From Fibrobacter sp. UWP2 (lineage in GTDB: Bacteria > Fibrobacterota > Fibrobacteria > Fibrobacterales > Fibrobacteraceae): 60,731 nt of DNA. Both the position numbers and the translations under genes were made by a program. Numbering within the stretch: position 1 is the stretch's first letter; each line of letters opens with the position of its first letter. The notes under the pieces are model-generated. The model did no database searches. It was not told where the DNA came from and saw nothing but the letters and a program-made list of their open reading frames with translations. The DNA lies in the NCBI RefSeq assembly GCF_900141705.1, contig NZ_FQYM01000020.1, forward strand, positions 1 through 60,731, read 5' to 3'. Positions 23,678 through 49,451 of this stretch are shown here, piece after piece.

Positions 23678-24814
23678 ATGGTTTTGACCGTCCTGACATA
23701 CGTCGTCATCGGCCTCCTGGCTGTGTTCTGCGTCTTCTACCTGTGGTTGGAGGTGCGGTTCTACCGTGCTCTCGGGACAGTCCGCGTTGGGGAATCCGAC
23801 GTCGAACCCAAGCCCGACGTCAGCGTCTTGATTGCCGCGAGGAACGAATCCGAGGGCATCCGAGCGACCCTGGACTCTGTTTTGGCACAGGACTACGCAG
23901 GCAAGTGGGAGGTTTGGGTCGCCGACGACCGCAGTACCGACGACACCCCGAAGATCCTTGCCGAGTATGCCCAAAGGCACCCCGACAAATTCCACGTCTT
24001 GACCATCACAGACCTCCCCGAGGGGGTCAGCCCCAAAAAACAGGCCATCAGCAAGATGATCGAGGCCTGCAACGGCGAAATCCTCTGCCTCACGGACGCC
24101 GACTGCATTGTCCAGCCGTCCTGGATCTCGGGCATTGTCCGTGAATTTGAACCGGGCATTGAGCTCGTGGCCGGGCACTCGTACATCCCGACCGAACCGG
24201 GCAAGTCCAAGGTCATCATCTGCATGCAGGCTATCGAGACGCTCATTTACCGTGTAGCGGGCACCGCCGGTCTCGCCATGCACCTGCCGCTCACCAGCAC
24301 AGGCAACAACCTCGCCTACCGCAAAAGTTTCTTCAAAAGCGTGAACGGTTTTGACAACGTCATCAAAATCCAAAGCGGCGACGATGACCTGCTCATGCAA
24401 AAACTCGCCGCCGACCGCCCATGGGCCATGCGCTACTGCATCGCCCCCAGCACCTTTGTGACCACGAACGGCAAGGAGACCCTCAAGGAGCTTTGGGAAC
24501 AGCGCAAGCGCTGGGCCTCCAAGACCATTTACTATACCCCCAAGATTGTTTTTGTGCTCAGCATGGTGTTCCTGTTTTTGACCATGCTATGCATTACCGA
24601 GATCCTCTCTCCGTTCAGTTTCAACATATTTGTCGCCACGCTCATTGCGTTTGTGCTCAAGTGCGTGGGTGACCTCGTTTTAATTCTTCGCGGGCTCAAG
24701 ATCTTTAAGCAGGAGCACCTCATCAAGTGGTGCATCCCCGTCGAAATCATCCATGCCCCGTTTACCGTGCTCGCCGTCCTGTTCGGTCTGTTCGGGCGTT
24801 TCAAGTGGAAGTAA
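23678..24814 (+). CDS. Membrane glycosyltransferase, family 2
   Basis: This 378-residue enzyme has one N-terminal membrane segment, a GT-A domain with VLIAARNES, DDRSTDDT, the DxD-type motif DADC, GDDDLL and the processive-type QRKRW, and two or three membrane segments near the C-terminus (about 285-345). It would transfer a sugar to a lipid or polymer at the inner membrane. The substrate cannot be told. Its stop is 1 bp before the topB ATG, so the two are translationally coupled, which is an odd functional pairing. Confidence 0.87.
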   Translation: MVLTVLTYVVIGLLAVFCVFYLWLEVRFYRALGTVRVGESDVEPKPDVSVLIAARNESEGIRATLDSVLAQDYAGKWEVWVADDRSTDDTPKILAEYAQRHPDKFHVLTITDLPEGVSPKKQAISKMIEACNGEILCLTDADCIVQPSWISGIVREFEPGIELVAGHSYIPTEPGKSKVIICMQAIETLIYRVAGTAGLAMHLPLTSTGNNLAYRKSFFKSVNGFDNVIKIQSGDDDLLMQKLAADRPWAMRYCIAPSTFVTTNGKETLKELWEQRKRWASKTIYYTPKIVFVLSMVFLFLTMLCITEILSPFSFNIFVATLIAFVLKCVGDLVLILRGLKIFKQEHLIKWCIPVEIIHAPFTVLAVLFGLFGRFKWK

Positions 24815-24815
24815 T

Positions 24816-27320
24816 ATGGCAACCAAGACTACTAAAGCAGCAACTGAAAAAAAAGCAAAAACCGCAACTAAGGCAACAAAGACTGCAAAAGCGCCCGCCG
24901 AGGGCAAAACCCTCATCATCGCCGAAAAGCCCAGTGTCGCAGCCGACCTGGTGAAGGTCCTCGGGAGCAAGAACTTTAAAAAAAGCGCCGGCGCCTACGA
25001 AAGCGACAAAATCATTGTAAGCCACGCCATAGGCCACTTGGTGACCATCGCCGACCCCAAGGATATTGACGAACGCTACAAGAACTGGGACATGAAGAAC
25101 CTCCCCATGCTCCCCGAAAAGTTCCCGCTCGTCGCAAGCCCCACAACCAAGTCACAACTTTCCATTTTAAGTAAGTTCATCAAAAAGAAAGACGTCACCA
25201 CCATCATCAACGCCTGCGATGCGGGCCGCGAAGGTGAACTGATCTTTTTCTACATCGTCGACTACGTACTCAAGGGGAACTTCAAGGGCAAGACCTTCAA
25301 GCGCCTGTGGATGCAAAGCATGACGCCCGCCGCCATCAAGGAAGCCTTCGAAAACCTGAGAAGCGAAGAGGACATGCAGAACTTGCGCGCAGCCGCCCTC
25401 TGCCGTAGCGAGGCCGACTGGCTCGTGGGCATGAATGGCAGCCGCGGCCTTACCGCGTACAACAGCAGCATGGGCGGTTTCCAAATCACGCCGTGCGGCC
25501 GCGTACAAACCCCGACACTCGCCATCATCGTAAAACGCGAAGAAGAACGCCACCAGTTTGTCCCCAAAAAGTTCTGGACCATCGAGGCCGACTTCAATAA
25601 CGGCGGCAACGCCTACCAGGGCAAATGGTTCACCGGCGACGGCAAGGATCGCGTAAAGCAAATCTACGACGAAAAAAAAGCGAAAGAAGTTGTCGAAAAG
25701 TGCAAGGGCAAGGACGGCAAAATCGAAGAGACGACCGCCCCGAGCCAACAAAAGTGCGGCCAGCTCTATGACCTCACCACGCTCCAGCGCGAAGCAAACA
25801 ATCGCTTTGGCTTTAGCGCAAAAACAACGCTCAGCATTGCGCAAAGCCTGTACGAACATTACAAGGTCACCACGTACCCGCGTACCGACAGCCGTTGCCT
25901 CCCCGAAGACTACGTGGCTCCGGTCAAGTCGACCCTGGGCAAAATCACAGGCCCGCTCGCCAAGTTCGCCCAGGAGGCCATCGAAAAGAATTACGTGAAA
26001 CGCACCCCGAAGGTCTTTGACAACAGCAAGATCTCGGACCACTTCGCCATCATCCCCACGGGAGTCGTGCCCAAGGGGCTCTCCGAAGCCGAAGAAAAAG
26101 TCTACACCATGATTTGCCAGCGCTTCATTGCGGTATTCTTCCCACCGGCGCAGTATTTGAACACGACCCGCATCACCACAGTCGAGGGCGAGACTTTCAT
26201 TACCGAGGGCAAAATCCTTGTGGACCCGGGTTTCAAGGCAGTCTACGGCAAAGATGGCGACGACGAATCCAACGTGCCCAAACTCAAGGGCGAATCTGCA
26301 AAAACGATTTCGATCGATGCCACCGAAGACTTTACCAAGCCTCCTGCACACTACACTGAAAGTACCCTCCTCTCCATGATGGAAAGCGCCGGCAAGCTGG
26401 TCGAAGATGACGAACTCCGCGACGCCATGAAGGAACGCGGCCTCGGCACCCCCGCCACACGCGCGGCCATCATCGAAAAACTGGTGAGCGACAAGTACGT
26501 GGTGCGCGACGGCAAGGAGATGATCCCGACCGCCAAGGCTTTCGACCTCATCAAGGTTTTGAGCGCCATGAACTGCGACGCCCTCACAAGCCCCGAACTC
26601 ACCGGCGAATGGGAATACAAGATGGACCTGATCTCGAAAGGCAAGGAATCCCGCGAAGCCTTTATGCAGGGCATTGTCGAGATGACCAAGAGCATGGTGA
26701 AGAACATCAAGGGCTTCAAAGAAGAAAGCACTACAGGTGAAGCCAAGTTCAGCCCGGTGAACGGCAAAAAGGTCTTTGAGACCGTGAGCCGCTACACCAC
26801 CGAAGACGGCATTGTAATCCGCAAGATGATTGGCGGCAAGCACCTCAGCGACGAAGAAATCGTGGAGCTTCTCACCAAGCGAAAGATTGGCCCGCTCACG
26901 GGTTTCCGCAGCAAAAAGGGAGCCGAGTTCTCGGCGGTGCTCACCATCAACGCCCAAAACAAGATTGAATTCGTGTTTGACGAAAAGCCCGAAGAAATTG
27001 AAATAGGCGCAAAGATCGGCGTTTCCCCTGTGGACGGCACCGACGTGTTCGAGACGCTCACCGGCTATGTTTCGCAGAGCTACATCGACAAGCAACCCTC
27101 AGGCCTGAGCCTGCCAAAGATTTTGCTGGGCAAGGAAATCCCGCTCAAAGAAATCCAGAACCTGCTCGCCGGCAAAAAGACGGCGCTCATCAAGGGTTTC
27201 CGCAGCAACAAGACGCACCGCCTTTTCGACGCCTTCTTGATGCTCGAAAAGGGCAAGCTCAAATTCGACTTCCCTCCGCGTGATTTTACCAAACGCCGTT
27301 TTACAAAGAAAAGTGCCTAA
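24816..27320 (+). CDS. topB: DNA topoisomerase III (type IA)
   Basis: This 834-residue type IA topoisomerase has a Lys/Thr/Ala-rich N-terminal extension of about 28 residues, the Toprim start TLIIAEKPSVAADL, the Toprim acidic motif DAGREGELIF, RLWMQSMTPAAI, and the catalytic Tyr354 in TYPRTDSR. The C-terminus carries two repeats (FSPVNGKKVFETVSRY.., VSPVDGTDVFETLTGY..), each ending FRS.K, of the cysteine-free kind seen in topoisomerase C-termini. No zinc fingers are present. I chose ATG 24816 because the upstream frame lies inside the glycosyltransferase gene. Confidence 0.93.
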   Translation: MATKTTKAATEKKAKTATKATKTAKAPAEGKTLIIAEKPSVAADLVKVLGSKNFKKSAGAYESDKIIVSHAIGHLVTIADPKDIDERYKNWDMKNLPMLPEKFPLVASPTTKSQLSILSKFIKKKDVTTIINACDAGREGELIFFYIVDYVLKGNFKGKTFKRLWMQSMTPAAIKEAFENLRSEEDMQNLRAAALCRSEADWLVGMNGSRGLTAYNSSMGGFQITPCGRVQTPTLAIIVKREEERHQFVPKKFWTIEADFNNGGNAYQGKWFTGDGKDRVKQIYDEKKAKEVVEKCKGKDGKIEETTAPSQQKCGQLYDLTTLQREANNRFGFSAKTTLSIAQSLYEHYKVTTYPRTDSRCLPEDYVAPVKSTLGKITGPLAKFAQEAIEKNYVKRTPKVFDNSKISDHFAIIPTGVVPKGLSEAEEKVYTMICQRFIAVFFPPAQYLNTTRITTVEGETFITEGKILVDPGFKAVYGKDGDDESNVPKLKGESAKTISIDATEDFTKPPAHYTESTLLSMMESAGKLVEDDELRDAMKERGLGTPATRAAIIEKLVSDKYVVRDGKEMIPTAKAFDLIKVLSAMNCDALTSPELTGEWEYKMDLISKGKESREAFMQGIVEMTKSMVKNIKGFKEESTTGEAKFSPVNGKKVFETVSRYTTEDGIVIRKMIGGKHLSDEEIVELLTKRKIGPLTGFRSKKGAEFSAVLTINAQNKIEFVFDEKPEEIEIGAKIGVSPVDGTDVFETLTGYVSQSYIDKQPSGLSLPKILLGKEIPLKEIQNLLAGKKTALIKGFRSNKTHRLFDAFLMLEKGKLKFDFPPRDFTKRRFTKKSA

Positions 27321-28548: not shown

Positions 28549-29094
28549 CTATTTCTTTTTTAGATTCCTGACCAGCTTCATCACAGTCTCCTCGCCGGCC
28601 TTGTTCAGGGCGAGTTTTAAAATTTCGGCGGCAGCCATGGTATCGTCCAGCGCCCTATGGTGATGGAAGTCGGGCAGTTCCAACGATTTCGTCAAATTGT
28701 GCAGGCTATAGCTCGGGAAACCCGGAAATACTTTTCTGGCAAGCTTTACTGTACAGAGCCGTGGTGCATCAAACATAATCGCGCAGCGCTTAAGTTCTTG
28801 CTTGATCATCTTGTAGTCGAACTGCACGTTGTGCGCCACAAAAATGCGGCCATGCAAAAGGGAGTCAATCTCGTCGGCAACGCCCCTGAACTGCGGGGCC
28901 CCGCTCACCATCTCGTCGGTTATGCCGGTCAATTTTACAACAAACGGGGTTATAGGCGCGCCGGGGTCCACCAAACTGTGGAACGTCTTGACCACCTCGG
29001 TTCCATCCAAAAGCACAATACCGACTTCAGTAATGCGGTTCATTTCAGCCGCACCACCAGTCGTTTCAACATCAACAACCGCAAACTTCATCAA
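28549..29094 (-). CDS. DnaQ-like 3'-5' exonuclease
   Basis: This 181-residue stand-alone DEDD exonuclease has ExoI DVETTG (residues 8-13), ExoII HNVQFDY and ExoIIIe HHRALDD. Such proteins proofread as the epsilon subunit of DNA polymerase III or act in RNA or repair degradation. The length fits a DnaQ/PolC-exonuclease-like protein. It lies 1 bp after the secreted-protein gene at 29096 on the same strand, so they form an operon. Confidence 0.88.
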   Translation of the reverse strand: MMKFAVVDVETTGGAAEMNRITEVGIVLLDGTEVVKTFHSLVDPGAPITPFVVKLTGITDEMVSGAPQFRGVADEIDSLLHGRIFVAHNVQFDYKMIKQELKRCAIMFDAPRLCTVKLARKVFPGFPSYSLHNLTKSLELPDFHHHRALDDTMAAAEILKLALNKAGEETVMKLVRNLKKK

Positions 29095-29680: not shown

Positions 29681-29859
29681 ATCCTTACTCCAATGGGTTT
29701 TCCAGCCCCACTTTCATTTCGTAATATACATCGGTTTTTTACCAAAAATTTCGCCTTTTTCAAAAAAAATTCCTCCAATCCGTTCTATTATCCGCATTGC
29801 CCGTCAGGCACGAGGCAAAAAGTTTCATTATTGCTAATTTCTACGCAGTTAGAGGCAAA

Positions 29860-30726
29860 ATGAACGGCAAAATTCGATTCGCACCCAGCCCCACCGGCTA
29901 CCTTCACGAAGGGCACCTCCTTTCGGCGCTTTACGTGTGGGCCGCTGCCCAAAAATGGGGTCTCCACATCCATTTGCGAATCGAGGACCACGACCAGAGT
30001 CGAGCCCGCCCCGAGTATATACAAAGCATTTACGAGGACCTCTCCTGGTTCGGCTTTAGCTGGGATTCACAAAGCATTCAAAGCGAGCGGGGTCGCATTT
30101 ACGAGGCAGCCCTTCAAAAGTTGAAGGCACAAAACCTAGTCTACCCGTGTTACTGCAGCCGAAAGCAGCTCGAAAACGAGAACCCCAAAAGCGAGACCGG
30201 AGAAATCGTATACAAAGGCAAGTGCCGTGAACAAGGCTCAGCATCAGCCATTGACACCCCGCACAACCTCCGCGTCAAAATAGCAGACAAAGTAATAGAG
30301 TGGCACGACCTTCGCTTAGGCGATTTTAGCGAGAATCCCAAATTCCAATGCGGCGACTTCCCCATCAAGGACCGCGACAACCAATGGACATACCAGTTCG
30401 CCGTTTGCGTAGACGATATAGACGAGGGGATTACGCATGTGGTCCGCGGCGAAGACATCCGCAGTTCCACCGCACGGCAAATCGAATTGATGGGGCTCCT
30501 GGGCAGGACTAGCCCCCCGGTCTACTACCACCATCCCCTCATCGTGGACACCAGTGGGAAAAAGCTCTCCAAGCGTGAAATGGCCCACAGCCTGCGGCAA
30601 GACAAAAACGCAGGCATCTCGCCCAAATCCCTCCTTGGAAAGGTCTGTTTTGAGGCCCATTTGCAGCCGCAAAACACCCCCATTACGCTACAACAGGCAT
30701 TAAACCTAGCCGCCGACCGATTGTAA
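29860..30726 (+). CDS. gluQ: Glutamyl-Q tRNA(Asp) synthetase
   Basis: This 288-residue protein is a short paralogue of glutamyl-tRNA synthetase lacking the anticodon-binding half. It has the HIGH-type motif in FAPSPTGYLHEGHL, a zinc site (C-Y-C at about 96-98 with Y..KC downstream) and the GKKLSKRE motif. GluQ attaches glutamate to queuosine at the wobble base of tRNA(Asp). I chose ATG 29860; the track-length frame upstream lacks homology. It is transcribed alone, 36 bp before the large helicase-like gene. Confidence 0.9.
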   Translation: MNGKIRFAPSPTGYLHEGHLLSALYVWAAAQKWGLHIHLRIEDHDQSRARPEYIQSIYEDLSWFGFSWDSQSIQSERGRIYEAALQKLKAQNLVYPCYCSRKQLENENPKSETGEIVYKGKCREQGSASAIDTPHNLRVKIADKVIEWHDLRLGDFSENPKFQCGDFPIKDRDNQWTYQFAVCVDDIDEGITHVVRGEDIRSSTARQIELMGLLGRTSPPVYYHHPLIVDTSGKKLSKREMAHSLRQDKNAGISPKSLLGKVCFEAHLQPQNTPITLQQALNLAADRL

Positions 30727-30762
30727 AGTTTGTAAACGCCTAAAAAATTTATATTGACAGCC

Positions 30763-33700
30763 ATGCCGCAAGCTAGCCCCTTTGAAATTCTCAATAAGAT
30801 TTGCAAAGAATCTGAACTCTTTGATTCCAAGGATCGTCTTTTGAATTTTTCTACCAAGGGGGATTTCCAAACTCCCTTGAGGCTTGAATCCGGCGACACC
30901 TTTTACGAAAAATGGCTCCAGGGCAAAAACCAGCCTACGCTGGAATCGTTTATGCCCGTAAGCCAGAACTTCTCGGCACAGCAAAAAATCGAGATGGAGG
31001 AACAGTTCAAGGCTGTCCTCAAGACCAAGGCCGAGGACTTCTTGTGCTCCGACCTGTACCTCATCCTCGGCTTCCTCAAATGGGACGGCAACGCGCTCGC
31101 CCCGAGCCTCCTGGTCCCGCTGGACGTAGCCCCGGATCAGCAAACGCTTACCCTGGGCAAGCAGGGACCTATCGAGAACGTCATCCTCAGGGACAGGCTC
31201 ATCAACACGGTGACACTTCCCACGGTCGAGGACGCGACCCTCCAGGGCAAGTTCAGCATCCTCTTGTATTTCTCGCTTTTCGAGAAAGCCATCGCCCAAG
31301 AAAAGACTTGGAAGTTCACGCGGCACGGTCTATGCCTCGCGTTCTTCAACACCAACCGCCTCAGGCTCAAAAAGCGCCTCAAAAAAGGATTCGACGAAAA
31401 GGAAGCCAACTCCCCGTTCCTCCAATCGCTACTGGGCGACGAGGGTTTCCAATTCAAGGAATCCGTTTTTGAAGAAGCCGACTTTGACCAAGTTTTCAAC
31501 CCGGCGGACCACCACTTTTTGTACCCCACGGATTCGCACACTAACAAGGTAACCATCGACGCCCTCGACGAGAAGTCCTCCGCCTACGCCGTGCAGTCGC
31601 TGCCAGGCACCTCCAAGTACAAGGTAGCAGCCAACATCGTCGCCGAGTCGCTCTCCAAGAACAAACGTACCCTGGTCGTTGCCCGCCGTTCCATTTCAAT
31701 GCAGAACTTCCGTGCGGCGTTCGCCCCCATGTTCCGCTCGTTCAGCGGTCCAGAACGCGACACCATCGAAAAGGACCTGAGAGACACACGCGAGTATTTC
31801 TCGAGCTACTACAGCATCGTAAACAACGACCTCCCTGTGGCAAAAGCGCCCCTCTCCGACATACTGGACGAGTTCATCCGCAATCCCGCCGTCAAGGCAA
31901 AGATCCCGGACGCAGTGTTCCAAGGCGTGGCTGAACTCCCCTACGACAAGTACATGTCGATCAAGGCGACCCTCGAAGAAATAGTTTCCCTGTACTTCAA
32001 GAACAACGGTATCGAGGCGCGCAACGCATTCAAAAAAATCAAGGTCTCGTCGCTGGACGCCAAGACTAAGGCAAAGGTAGCCGAGGACCTCAACGCCGCA
32101 GCAGCCCAGGTCGAGAGCCTAAAGCCGCTCATCTCCATCTTTGAAGAATCCGGTCTTTTGCCCACAGGCATCTACCTGTCCGCCTTTGCCGAACTGCTCA
32201 ACCTCATCCAGGTGACATTCAACCAGGACACTCCCGAATTCGAGGAATGGGAACTGCGTTCCAACAACTGGTCCGCTTACCAGGATACCCTCAAGGCTCT
32301 CCCCGAAGCCGGGGACAAGTGGGTCCGCTACCGCCGCCAGGCATCGGACATTTACACCGACGACGCGGTAGACACCAACGTTCTTGCCACACGCGAAGAA
32401 TTCGCCGAGAGCCTGAAGGCGACTCTCAAGGGCCTATCTGACCACTACCGCAATTCGCGCAAGCGCTTGCTCAAGGTCATCAAGAACCCAAAGTCCGTTT
32501 CTTCGGATATGCAACTTTTGGACCTCATCGACTCGCTCATCGAGTTGCAAGAGGACAAGCGTGCCTACAAGGACACCTCCGTACTGGGCAACCACCTGTT
32601 GGGCAAGGACTGGCTCTACGAAAAATCCAACTGGGTTGAACTCAACCAAAAAATCCAGTACCTATACGACTTCCGCGAAACGCACAAAAACGACCCGCAC
32701 CTGGATTTGCTCTTACTCGTTCTCGAAAACTGGCACAAGCTAAAGCCCGAACTCGAGAACTTTGAAAAATACAGTGAAATTTTGCAGGCATTGACGTACT
32801 CGGTACGCAGCGTCAGCAACAATCTCGCCCTTGAGACGCCGCTCGAATCCTTGAGCATCGACAAGTGGCTCGACGAAATCCAGGCCTGGAACCAGAACTG
32901 GGACAATCTCGACATTCACATTAAAATCTCGGCGCTCATCAATAGCTTGGAAGCTGAAGGTTGTACAGAACTCGCCAAGTACGCGAGCAACACCAGCACC
33001 ATCCACAAGGATTTCGCCAAGGCTTTCGCGCACCACTGGGCAGCCTCGCAAGTGCACGCCGTTACCAAAAAGAACCCGCAAATGTTCTCGCTGGATCCCA
33101 AGGCACGGCACGCCAAGGGCAAACTCTACCGCGCGCAAATGGACCAGTTCAGCAACGCGAACTTCCGCGAGGTACATGCCCTGGTCGAAGCAAAACCCGA
33201 CATGCTGACTATCGCCTCCCTCGAGGAGACCTTTAGTTTGGTGGCCCAGCATTACGATGTCGCCGTGATTCTCGACGCCGACTGCATCTCGGTTGCCGAG
33301 TCGTTTGCGTCGATTTGCACTGCACACAAAGTCATTTTGATTGGCGACCCGCACATGCCCTCTATCGAGGCGCAACCGTTCGACGCCTTCCGCAATATTT
33401 TGCCGCGCCAAAGCGCCTTCTTCCAAGAGAACATCCTGGCGGCGGCACTCCGCAAGGGCATCCCGACCCGCGAAATCTGGTTCTGCAGCCTTTACAACGA
33501 CATTTCGCTGGTCAACTTCGCCAACGACAAAATTTACAACCACGGCATCAAGCAACTGCCCATGCCGAACCGCGAAAAGCCTCGGTGCGAAAACCTCATG
33601 GTTGTGCCAGACAAAGTCATGGCCATTGCCAAGGCGGCAGTGCAGCACGCCGAAAAGCACCCTGGTCAAACGCTAGGCATCATCGCCTTCCACCAGGCGC

Positions 33701-34866
33701 GCTGTTTCGAAATCGAGGCCGCCATCAAGGCGCTCGTCGCCAAGGACTCTCCGGCGGCACGTTACTTTGGTCAAACCAACCCGCTAATTAGCTATTACAT
33801 CAAAACGCCGGATCGCGTCATCGACAAGTACCGCGACGTGGTGATGGTGTGCGTGGAAGTCGACAACAGCGACAAGATTTCTGCCGACCGCAAGCTCTCT
33901 GTTTGCACCACCTTGGCAAAGCAGGAGCTGATGGTATTCGTCTCTTCGAACGACCTCGAAAAGCAAAAGGCAGCCAAGTCGAACCTTTTTTGGGAATGGA
34001 TTAACCACCTTCAAAAGAAAACCGAAATTGAGCTCCCCGTTGTGGAGCAAACCGAATCCAAGATTCGTCCGCAAATCATTGACGCACTCAAAGAAGCAGG
34101 TGTCATTGTCGAGAATTCCTTTGCCCCGGGCGGCATCGCCGTGGGGCCGGTCGTCGTGGACGCCAACTACTCCAAGCGTTTCCTCGCCGTGGTCGAGGAT
34201 GACTGCACCACCGAACGTTTCCGCGAATCGGTCGAGGACCGCGAATACGTACGCCCGTCCCTGTTGCGCCAGCTGGGCTGGAAGGTCCTGGACATTTGGC
34301 AACCCCTGTGGTTCCTTTCGAACCAGGCCGAAAAAGAGCATCTGATAACGACTATCGCCATCGAGCAAAGCGTTGCCCCACCGCCACCCGAAGATGATGT
34401 CGAGGGCGGCAGTGAAGAATTCTTTAACCAGGAACCAGAACTCGACATTAAGCAATACCAGGTGGTGAACCCGAAAATCGAAGGTACAGCACACGCCAAG
34501 CCCATTGCCGAGTTGCCCGCCATTTCGATTATTGCTCAGCTCAAGTTCTATGTGGACCACGAGGCTCCCATCCACGAAGAGATCCTTATGCGGCGCCTGC
34601 TTGAATTGCACGGCGTGGACCGCGCTGGCCCCATGATTTTGCAAGCTTTGAACGACGCCGTCAAGCTCGGCTTCCAAAAGAAGAAATTCATTAAAACTGG
34701 CAAGTTCTTCTACTCTACAAAAGACCTGCCCGTCGCTTTACGCGATCGCAGCACCCGCCCCGAGTACGAGCGCAAAATGGCTTACGTCTCTCCCGAAGAG
34801 AGGGCGCTTTTGCCCGCCTCCATGGACGAGCGCACCATCAAGCAGACCCTTGGCCTGCTTGAGTAA
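30763..34866 (+). CDS. Giant degenerate superfamily-1 helicase/Vsr-like nuclease
   Basis: This 1367-residue protein aligns by eye with large DUF4011/DUF3320-type helicases that carry an MTES_1575/Vsr-like nuclease domain. The Walker A region reads VQSLPGTSKYK (277-287) where active members have PGTGKS/T. Walker B reads ILDADC (836-841) instead of DEAS, and motif VI reads LSVCTTLAK (1045-1053) without its Arg. The nuclease core (1127-1147, VVVDAN...LAVVEDD) also lacks the usual acidic pattern. A DUF3320-like winged helix ends the protein. The frame is intact and codon use matches neighbours, so it seems retained for a non-catalytic role. The start is ATG 30763, or TTG 30754. Confidence 0.7.
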   Translation: MPQASPFEILNKICKESELFDSKDRLLNFSTKGDFQTPLRLESGDTFYEKWLQGKNQPTLESFMPVSQNFSAQQKIEMEEQFKAVLKTKAEDFLCSDLYLILGFLKWDGNALAPSLLVPLDVAPDQQTLTLGKQGPIENVILRDRLINTVTLPTVEDATLQGKFSILLYFSLFEKAIAQEKTWKFTRHGLCLAFFNTNRLRLKKRLKKGFDEKEANSPFLQSLLGDEGFQFKESVFEEADFDQVFNPADHHFLYPTDSHTNKVTIDALDEKSSAYAVQSLPGTSKYKVAANIVAESLSKNKRTLVVARRSISMQNFRAAFAPMFRSFSGPERDTIEKDLRDTREYFSSYYSIVNNDLPVAKAPLSDILDEFIRNPAVKAKIPDAVFQGVAELPYDKYMSIKATLEEIVSLYFKNNGIEARNAFKKIKVSSLDAKTKAKVAEDLNAAAAQVESLKPLISIFEESGLLPTGIYLSAFAELLNLIQVTFNQDTPEFEEWELRSNNWSAYQDTLKALPEAGDKWVRYRRQASDIYTDDAVDTNVLATREEFAESLKATLKGLSDHYRNSRKRLLKVIKNPKSVSSDMQLLDLIDSLIELQEDKRAYKDTSVLGNHLLGKDWLYEKSNWVELNQKIQYLYDFRETHKNDPHLDLLLLVLENWHKLKPELENFEKYSEILQALTYSVRSVSNNLALETPLESLSIDKWLDEIQAWNQNWDNLDIHIKISALINSLEAEGCTELAKYASNTSTIHKDFAKAFAHHWAASQVHAVTKKNPQMFSLDPKARHAKGKLYRAQMDQFSNANFREVHALVEAKPDMLTIASLEETFSLVAQHYDVAVILDADCISVAESFASICTAHKVILIGDPHMPSIEAQPFDAFRNILPRQSAFFQENILAAALRKGIPTREIWFCSLYNDISLVNFANDKIYNHGIKQLPMPNREKPRCENLMVVPDKVMAIAKAAVQHAEKHPGQTLGIIAFHQARCFEIEAAIKALVAKDSPAARYFGQTNPLISYYIKTPDRVIDKYRDVVMVCVEVDNSDKISADRKLSVCTTLAKQELMVFVSSNDLEKQKAAKSNLFWEWINHLQKKTEIELPVVEQTESKIRPQIIDALKEAGVIVENSFAPGGIAVGPVVVDANYSKRFLAVVEDDCTTERFRESVEDREYVRPSLLRQLGWKVLDIWQPLWFLSNQAEKEHLITTIAIEQSVAPPPPEDDVEGGSEEFFNQEPELDIKQYQVVNPKIEGTAHAKPIAELPAISIIAQLKFYVDHEAPIHEEILMRRLLELHGVDRAGPMILQALNDAVKLGFQKKKFIKTGKFFYSTKDLPVALRDRSTRPEYERKMAYVSPEERALLPASMDERTIKQTLGLLE

Positions 34867-46774: not shown

Positions 46775-46905
46775 CGTTTTGCCCTATGTTGGAGTTCATT
46801 CTTCAAATTAACTTTTTATACGTGAATTCCCTATAGATGTTTAGCCAAAGAGGGTAAAAATTTCTAAACTTGCTCATGAAATTTTAACCTTAACGTAGGT
46901 GTATC

Positions 46906-49380
46906 ATGGCAAAAGCAATCAAGAAAGCAGAAGAAGTCGAAGTGCTCGGCACCGACGCGGAATCGTTCCGCAAGGCGTTTACCGACCACATCCACCACAC
47001 GCTCGCCCGTAACAAGGTGACCGTGACCGACCACGAGAAGTTCCTCGCGGTCGCATACGCCGTCCGCGACCGTCTCGTGGACCGCTGGATCAAGACCCAG
47101 GAGACCTACTACAAGCAGGACGTGAAGCGCGTCTACTACCTCTCCCTCGAATTCTTGATTGGCCGCACGCTCGGCAACTCCGTGCTGAACCTCGACGTCG
47201 AAAGCGCCGTCACCGAAGCGCTCGACGAAATCGGCATGACCCTCGAAGAACTCCGCGAACAGGAAGTTGACGCTGGTCTCGGTAACGGTGGCCTCGGCCG
47301 CCTCGCCGCCTGCTTCCTCGACTCCATGGCAACTCTCGAACTCCCGGCCACCGGCATGGGCATCCGCTACGAATACGGCATGTTCAGCCAGAAGATCGTG
47401 AACGGCGAGCAGGAAGAACAGCCGGATAACTGGCTGCGCCTCCCGAACCCCTGGGAAATCGCCCGCCCGGCCAACGCCATCAAGGTGCCGTTCTACGGCT
47501 ACGTGGTGAGCTGGATGGACGACAACGGCAAGCTCCGCAACCGCTGGGAAACAAAGGACTACGTGCTCGCCCTCCCGTACGACACCCCGATTCCGGGCTA
47601 CAAGAACAACACCGTGAACAACCTGCGCCTCTGGAGCGCGAAGTCCACCGACGACTTCGGCCTCAGCTACTTCAACAACGGCGACTACATTGCCGCCGTG
47701 CAGGACATGGAACTCTCCGAGACCATCTCCAAGGTGCTGTACCCGAACGACTCCTCCATGAACGGTAAGGAACTGCGCCTCAAGCAGCAGTACTTCCTGT
47801 GCTCCGCCTCCCTGCAGGATATCATCAAGCGCTTCAAGAAGCTCCATGACGGCGATTGGAAGAAGTTCCCCGAGAAGGTCGCCATCCAGCTGAATGATAC
47901 GCACCCGGCAATCTCCATCGCCGAAATGATGCGCATCCTCCTCGACATCGAGAACATGGAATGGGACGAAGCCTGGGACATCGTCACCAAGACGTTCGCC
48001 TACACGAACCACACCCTGATGCCGGAAGCCCTCGAGAAGTGGCCCGTCAGCCTCTTCGAGAAGCTCCTCCCGCGTCACCTCCAGATCATTTACGAAATCA
48101 ACGCACGCTTCCTGCGCATGGTCAGCATGAAGTGGCCCGGCGACAACGCCCGCCTCGCCCGCATGAGCCTCATCGAAGAAGGCAACTGCAAGATGGTCCG
48201 CATGGCCTACCTCTCCATCGTGGGTTCGTTCGCCGTGAACGGCGTGGCCGCTCTCCACTCCGACCTCCTGAAGACCACCCTCTTCAAGGACTTCTACGAA
48301 CTGTGGCCTGAAAAGTTCAACAACAAGACGAACGGCGTGACGCCGCGTCGCTGGGTCCGCAAGGCCAACCCCGCCATGTCCGAGCTCATCACCAAGAAGA
48401 TTGGTGACAGCTGGGTCAAGGACCTCGATGACTTGCGCAAGCTCGAAAAGTTCACTAAGGACGCCGCATTCCAGAAGGAATTCATGGCAGTCAAGAAGCA
48501 GAACAAGGAACGCCTCGCCAAGTACCTCAAGGCAACGCAGGGCGTCGATGTCGATACCGATACGTTCTTCGACGTGCAGGTGAAGCGCATCCACGAATAC
48601 AAGCGCCAGCTGCTGAACATCCTCCACGCCATCCACCTGTACATCCAGGTGAAGGACGGCAAGGAAATCATGCCGCGCACCATCATGATCGGTGGTAAGT
48701 CCGCTCCGGGTTACTGGATGGCCAAGCAGATCATCCGCCTCGCGAACGCCGTGGCCGCCATCATCGACGCCGACCCGGTCTGCAAGGGCAAGCTCAAGAT
48801 GGTGTTCCTCGAGAACTACCGCGTTTCCTTCGCCGAGAAGATTATCCCGGCGGCTGACCTCTCCGAACAGATTTCTACTGCGGGCACCGAAGCCTCGGGT
48901 ACCGGCAACATGAAGTTCGCCCTCAACGGCGCACTCACCATCGGTACGCTCGATGGCGCCAACGTGGAAATGAAGGAAGAAGTCGGCGACGAGAACATCT
49001 TCATCTTCGGCCTCACCGTGGAAGAAGTCACCGACCTGCTCGCCAAGGGCTACCGTCCGCGCGACTTCTACGAGAAGGACGACGACCTGCGCCGCGTTAT
49101 CGACCTCATCGGTTCCGGCTTCTTCAGCCCCGACCGTCCGGACCTGTTCAAGCACATTGCAGACAAACTCCTCACCCACGACCCGTACATGCTCTGCGCC
49201 GACTTCCGCAGCTACGTGGACATGCAGGCCAAGGTGGCGAAGGAATACCAGAACAAGAAGGCTTGGGCCGAAAAGGCAATCCTCAACGTGGCTCGCATGG
49301 GCAAGTTCAGTTCCGACCGTACCATCAAGCAGTACGCCGAAGAAATCTGGAACGCCAAGCCCTGCAGCATCAAGTTGTAA
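46906..49380 (+). CDS. glgP: Glycogen/starch phosphorylase
   Basis: This 824-residue PLP enzyme releases glucose-1-phosphate from glycogen. It shows YYLSLEFLIGRTLGN, GNGGLGRLAACFLDSMATL, VAIQLNDTHP and the PLP motif EASGTGNMKFALNGALTIGTLDGANVE with the conserved lysine (about residue 671). The length is normal for the family. It is monocistronic with a strong terminator. Fibrobacter is known to store glycogen, which fits. Confidence 0.97.
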   Translation: MAKAIKKAEEVEVLGTDAESFRKAFTDHIHHTLARNKVTVTDHEKFLAVAYAVRDRLVDRWIKTQETYYKQDVKRVYYLSLEFLIGRTLGNSVLNLDVESAVTEALDEIGMTLEELREQEVDAGLGNGGLGRLAACFLDSMATLELPATGMGIRYEYGMFSQKIVNGEQEEQPDNWLRLPNPWEIARPANAIKVPFYGYVVSWMDDNGKLRNRWETKDYVLALPYDTPIPGYKNNTVNNLRLWSAKSTDDFGLSYFNNGDYIAAVQDMELSETISKVLYPNDSSMNGKELRLKQQYFLCSASLQDIIKRFKKLHDGDWKKFPEKVAIQLNDTHPAISIAEMMRILLDIENMEWDEAWDIVTKTFAYTNHTLMPEALEKWPVSLFEKLLPRHLQIIYEINARFLRMVSMKWPGDNARLARMSLIEEGNCKMVRMAYLSIVGSFAVNGVAALHSDLLKTTLFKDFYELWPEKFNNKTNGVTPRRWVRKANPAMSELITKKIGDSWVKDLDDLRKLEKFTKDAAFQKEFMAVKKQNKERLAKYLKATQGVDVDTDTFFDVQVKRIHEYKRQLLNILHAIHLYIQVKDGKEIMPRTIMIGGKSAPGYWMAKQIIRLANAVAAIIDADPVCKGKLKMVFLENYRVSFAEKIIPAADLSEQISTAGTEASGTGNMKFALNGALTIGTLDGANVEMKEEVGDENIFIFGLTVEEVTDLLAKGYRPRDFYEKDDDLRRVIDLIGSGFFSPDRPDLFKHIADKLLTHDPYMLCADFRSYVDMQAKVAKEYQNKKAWAEKAILNVARMGKFSSDRTIKQYAEEIWNAKPCSIKL

Positions 49381-49408
49381 TCGGCCACGCGACACGCCAT
49401 TAAAAAGT

Positions 49409-49434
49409 CCCGCGAGAAATCGCGGGATTTTTTT
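49409..49434 (+). terminator. Terminator after glgP
   Basis: CCCGCGA-GAAA-TCGCGGG is a stem with a GNRA tetraloop, followed by seven T residues. Confidence 0.93.
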
Positions 49435-49451
49435 ACAGGGGCACATGCAAG

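Follow-up and report, generated by a model that had tools for sequence, protein, structure and literature searches.

The window, a 60,731-nucleotide stretch of the genome of Fibrobacter sp. UWP2, contains a long plus-strand open reading frame that begins with an ATG at position 30763 (with an alternative TTG at 30754) and encodes a protein of 1367 amino acids. In a preliminary description this had been read as a DUF4011/DUF3320-type superfamily-1 helicase joined to a Vsr-like nuclease domain, with every catalytic motif altered and a frame that is open over 4.1 kb with codon use like that of its neighbours. The frame is indeed open throughout, and its codon use correlates with that of the neighbouring genes at r=0.94. 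Elsewhere in the window, an 860-residue minus-strand frame (46864-49446) differs in codon use from the other genes (r=0.33), and an 824-residue plus-strand frame overlaps it. Across the genera that carry the degenerate helicase gene, it lies in a housekeeping block whose order is, with small variations, topB - bglX-like - dnaQ-like - unknown - gluQ - degenerate helicase gene - SPOR - fibro-slime. In the window, the topoisomerase gene (24753-27320) matches the PADLOC model DpdF with 348 bits and the dnaQ-like gene (28549-29094) matches PDC-S48; both look like housekeeping domains cross-matching defence models.

Features of the degenerate helicase gene and of the gene directly upstream (positions in the window)
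Feature	Residues	Position	Strand	Basis or remark
gluQ-type tRNA synthetase paralogue (PF00749)		29797..30726	+	directly upstream, order conserved; stop 36 nt before the ATG
Degenerate DUF4011 / SF1B helicase / MTES_1575 nuclease / DUF3320 protein	1367 aa	30763..34866	+	open reading frame, profile searches and profile-profile alignment
Degraded Walker A, PGTSKYK	281-287	31603..31623	+	GxGKS invariant in intact relatives; second Gly lost in all orthologues
Central helical module	481-650	32203..32712	+	strongest purifying selection, median omega 0.029
Degraded Walker B, VILDADC	835-841	33265..33285	+	DE replaced by LD; ungapped alignment with intact relatives
Degraded motif VI, LSVCTTLAK	1045-1053	33895..33921	+	alignment
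MTES_1575 Vsr-like nuclease domain	1104-1198	34072..34356	+	profile and alignment; first Asp and His missing, E1145 and D1147 present
Clade-specific conserved motif TIAIEQSVAPPP	1197-1208	34351..34386	+	not seen in intact relatives
DUF3320 match	1264-1292	34552..34638	+	profile search; inside highly conserved C-terminal region

In profile searches, the UWP2 protein exceeded the Pfam cut-offs for MTES_1575 and DUF3320. Among 26 members of the degenerate family, the cut-offs were reached by all 26 for MTES_1575, by 21 for DUF4011 and by 20 for DUF3320, while none of the 26 reached those of the AAA/helicase models; the intact relatives, unlike the degenerate family, match AAA_11/AAA_12. When the family was aligned profile to profile with eight intact members (hhalign), the match extended end to end over 1318 columns with a probability of 100, so that the layout proposed in the preliminary description is correct. 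The protein thus has the full-length homology and domain order of the DUF4011/MTES_1575/DUF3320 superfamily, but not its intact SF1 motifs I, II and VI; of the Vsr-like catalytic Asp ... CDG ... His, the first Asp and the His are gone and the second Asp is present. A search of PDB sequences with the protein returned no matches. Among the closest known systems is the defence candidate PDC-S37, one of the DUF4011-DUF3320 helicase-nucleases, with which the protein shares domain order and homology along its whole length, and whose profile it matches strongly but partially (355 bits). It differs in being shorter by about 150 residues or more, in having lost its helicase motifs and some of its nuclease site, and in being core and vertically inherited rather than accessory. 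Matches to the curated NCBIfam families ProA (NF058533; 242 bits against a cut-off of 1500) and Hhe (NF042953; 66 bits against a cut-off of 2000) are likewise partial, and the motifs of both are lost in the Fibrobacter protein.

To describe the loss of motifs, we used as reference 13 intact relatives, three of them accessory genes from the genus and the other ten carried on bacterial and archaeal plasmids; a plasmid sequence with a garbled and probably frameshifted middle (L198) was left out from the invariant-column comparison onwards. This revealed 117 columns that are invariant in the intact relatives, 24 of which are kept at 90% in the degenerate clade. The lost invariant residues include Q260, G279, G284, S286, D837, E838, Q865, the YRS of motif IV, Q1020, R1051 and D1128. 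Gone in essentially all orthologues are the Gln of the Q-motif, the Gly and Ser of Walker A, the DE of Walker B, the Gln of motif III, the YRS of motif IV, the Gln of motif V and the Arg of motif VI; retained in the clade are the PG of Walker A, the GD of motif III (mostly), the RD of motif V and the second nuclease Asp. The degraded strings quoted in the preliminary description for Walker A, Walker B (ILDADC) and motif VI are all present as given, although in Walker B, which aligns without gaps between 'FD' and 'GD', the change is not a simple loss of the Glu but a replacement of DE by LD (D837L in 27 and E838D in 28 of 28 orthologues). The arginine-finger position 1051 is Leu in the UWP2 protein and His in some other genera.

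The motif loss is common to the 71 orthologues checked, down to an identity of about 30%, and the non-catalytic replacements are common to all, as the preliminary description had predicted. There is no intact motif at another place in the protein: none of the 71 contains G.GK[ST], YRS or QGDE, and scattered matches to other motifs sit off-site. We also looked for orthologues that retain the motifs, both within the clade and at its margin, and found none. In the nuclease domain, the proposed loss of acidic residues holds for the first Asp (position 1128), which is gone in all orthologues together with the YH histidine, but not for E1145 and D1147, which are invariant in 26 orthologues and lie beside a newly conserved SVEDREYxRP stretch. 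The Walker A Lys is present in 49 of 56 sequences of the genus and lost in several other genera. Given these retained residues, some nucleotide or metal binding may persist. The protein could also have remained an enzyme by rebuilding its active site, acting as a nuclease through E1145/D1147 or as an ATPase through the remaining Lys; as the first catalytic Asp and the His are lost throughout, as the Walker A Gly, Walker B Asp and motif VI Arg are lost in essentially all orthologues, and as the Lys itself is missing in other genera, we regard this as unlikely. A partial change at the nuclease site was also seen in three ProA-like relatives, L062 and L063 (G006, G046) and L193, whose helicase motifs are intact and in which ECDGxxYH has become LCDG or ICDG, with Y-R or Y-K replacing Y-H.

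An AlphaFold 2 model of residues 171-1367 (pLDDT 84.5, pTM 0.63) was compared with the PDB using Foldseek, which returned Dna2, Upf1, Aquarius, Sen1, Ighmbp2 and AddAB with E-values of 2e-9 to 4e-7, providing the helicase-fold match that the preliminary description had called for. Since these matches are local and their TM-scores low (0.15-0.37), they support an SF1B fold but not its detailed arrangement, and with a pTM of 0.63 the predicted arrangement of the domains is uncertain. The degenerate protein is therefore predicted to keep a fold like that of the SF1B helicases Dna2 and Upf1, from which it differs in having lost the ATPase motifs.

Selection on the gene was estimated from pairwise comparisons (Nei-Gojobori). 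Omega was 0.03-0.09 in the 25 closest pairs, the low dN/dS, far from 1, that had been proposed as a mark of a retained role, and its median stayed below 0.1 in every domain (0.03-0.08), with the lowest value in the central module. Over 79 pairs the median for the whole gene was 0.092, compared with 0.15 for gluQ next to it. Together with the neighbour-like codon use, this implies that the degenerate gene is functional. The constraint has, moreover, shifted. In the intact relatives the most conserved parts are the blocks of the ATP site and the nuclease, and in the degenerate clade conservation peaks in the central module and over the final 180 residues. The clade has 65 newly fixed positions, of which 23 fall within the C-terminal 182 residues (binomial P 6e-6), several of them in the motif TIAIEQSVAPPP. 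In motif Ia, the acidic E308 has become Arg or Lys in 25 of 28 clade members, and the helicase parts of the clade are more positively charged than those of the intact relatives; both changes would fit contact with nucleic acid.

A search with the family alignment found the gene in 78 of 80 genomes of Fibrobacter, the two genomes without it being 65% and 71% complete, as well as in all sampled genomes of the sister genera g28, g29, g30, g32 and g33 and in two of three of g34. The same search did not find it in g25, g26, g27 and g31 or in any other family of the phylum, where weak matches were taken as cross-matches to other helicases. A scan of 84,980 species genomes, which relied on two C-terminal peptide patterns, returned 66 loci, all from Fibrobacter/Fibrobacteraceae. 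The gene is a single-copy core gene of the genus. In a midpoint-rooted tree, all 28 members sampled from the clade group together (support 0.95), and a long stem separates them from the 13 intact relatives. Taken together, this monophyly, the common motif loss and the synteny point to one inactivation event that preceded the separation of the genera, and to vertical inheritance since then. We infer the direction, from intact to dead, because the intact relatives are so widely spread. No intact version was seen behind gluQ in the lineages that lack the degenerate gene, where the locus is rearranged.

The absence of the gene from some genera and from one genome of g34 (G165; 94% complete, with a rearranged gluQ neighbourhood, while two congeners have the gene) could be read as decay on the way to loss, as could two damaged copies: one orthologue (L046, G058:C9:52437-56548) appears broken into two reading frames at about residue 220, and another (L025, G027:C128) carries a TAG codon. 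Either could reflect a faulty assembly or a genuine loss. A gene in decay is nevertheless contradicted by omega values far below 1 in every domain, by full length in nearly all genomes and by a motif loss that predates the genera, and has in our judgement next to no chance of being the explanation.

The position of the gene directly behind gluQ, with a gap of 16-76 nt in 55 genomes, suggests that the two may be cotranscribed. This constant order, and the RNA helicases Upf1, Sen1 and Aquarius among the nearest predicted folds, could indicate an RNA-binding scaffold that works together with gluQ in translation or tRNA biology. On the other hand, gluQ is found without the degenerate gene in genera 25-27 and in G165, and so does not need the helicase-like protein, and the adjacency may be passive synteny; a role of this kind has only a slim chance of being correct.

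The missing ATP-site residues and the incomplete set of nuclease residues make catalysis unlikely, and the strong selection argues for binding. In the reading we favour, and consider probable, a single ancient inactivation gave rise to a vertically inherited core protein with a non-catalytic binding or scaffold role. A DUF4011-type helicase-nuclease would have lost its activity a single time, before the divergence of the seven Fibrobacteraceae genera that carry it, and then been retained as a core gene passed on vertically. The helicase fold, the central helical module and the nuclease/DUF3320 end would bind nucleic acid, a partner protein or both, so that the protein would serve as a scaffold or specificity subunit in the fashion of RecC and AddB, with neither ATP turnover nor DNA cleavage. 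Judged from sequence, it most likely lacks ATPase and nuclease activity, and may bind nucleic acid and have a partner. The structural or binding role suggested in the preliminary description is accordingly supported by the kept fold, the common non-catalytic replacements and the low dN/dS.

RecC and AddB offer the closest functional parallel, since in each a dead SF1 helicase fold is combined with a domain of nuclease type and maintained by selection (PMC1185551, PMC4824097, PMC9836394). Their dead helicase domains recognise DNA sequence (PMC4824097, PMC9836394), and the dead nuclease domain of RecC guides DNA (PMC1185551). The Fibrobacter protein likewise combines helicase and nuclease folds, lost catalytic residues and purifying selection, but whereas RecC and AddB have a UvrD-like helicase and a PD-(D/E)xK nuclease, it has a UPF1/Dna2-like SF1B helicase and a Vsr-like nuclease, and a profile search found no match to Exonuc_V_gamma (PF04257) in it. 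We also considered a replacement for a missing RecC and rejected it, as the genome has a RecC match (contig C33) near a RecB-like match; with RecB and RecC both encoded, the degenerate protein must do something else or join another complex. Another parallel is the eukaryotic pseudohelicase Utp25, which has a non-catalytic, structural role in ribosome biogenesis (PMC9539457); it too is helicase-like without catalysis, but is eukaryotic and of an unrelated family. A more specific version of our reading, which we put forward tentatively, is that a phage-defence-type helicase-nuclease became a non-catalytic DNA- or RNA-handling subunit and is now part of the core machinery of Fibrobacteraceae. The route taken by RecC and AddB would then have been followed a second time, independently, starting from UPF1-like helicases with a Vsr-like nuclease.

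The homology to PADLOC PDC-S37 and to the anti-phage families ProA and Hhe raises the alternative that the protein still acts in phage defence, whether as the decoy or sensor of the preliminary description or as a regulatory partner of an active helicase-nuclease. Its distribution is not that of an accessory defence-island gene, as in PDC-S37: it is a single-copy core gene, syntenic across the sister genera beside topB, the dnaQ-like gene, gluQ and the SPOR-domain gene, and most of its near neighbours have no defence match. Only three Fibrobacter genomes, furthermore, were seen to have full-length intact relatives, so that in most of them the protein would have no active paralogue under its control. 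We therefore consider a defence role quite unlikely; as a decoy it is not supported, whereas the idea of a pseudoenzyme is, and the observation of a conserved full-length helicase-nuclease with degraded motifs is confirmed as real. Literature searches on PDC-S37 and DUF4011/DUF3320 found no functional work on such a protein. Most genes of the helicase-nuclease group have been described only as accessory defence candidates, and in Fibrobacter one of them turned core while losing its catalytic motifs. The 71 orthologues across seven genera form a natural record of the parts that matter without catalysis. In a phylum that includes important degraders of fibre, they offer a case, open to testing, in which a protein of defence type would have been domesticated as a scaffold. 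In Pseudomonas aeruginosa, a DUF4011 gene has been reported as a core flank of a defence hotspot (PMC10250203). Around one of the intact accessory relatives (L238 188-628, G032), a 20-kb stretch inspected by eye also contains a frame for a Vsr-like short-patch endonuclease.
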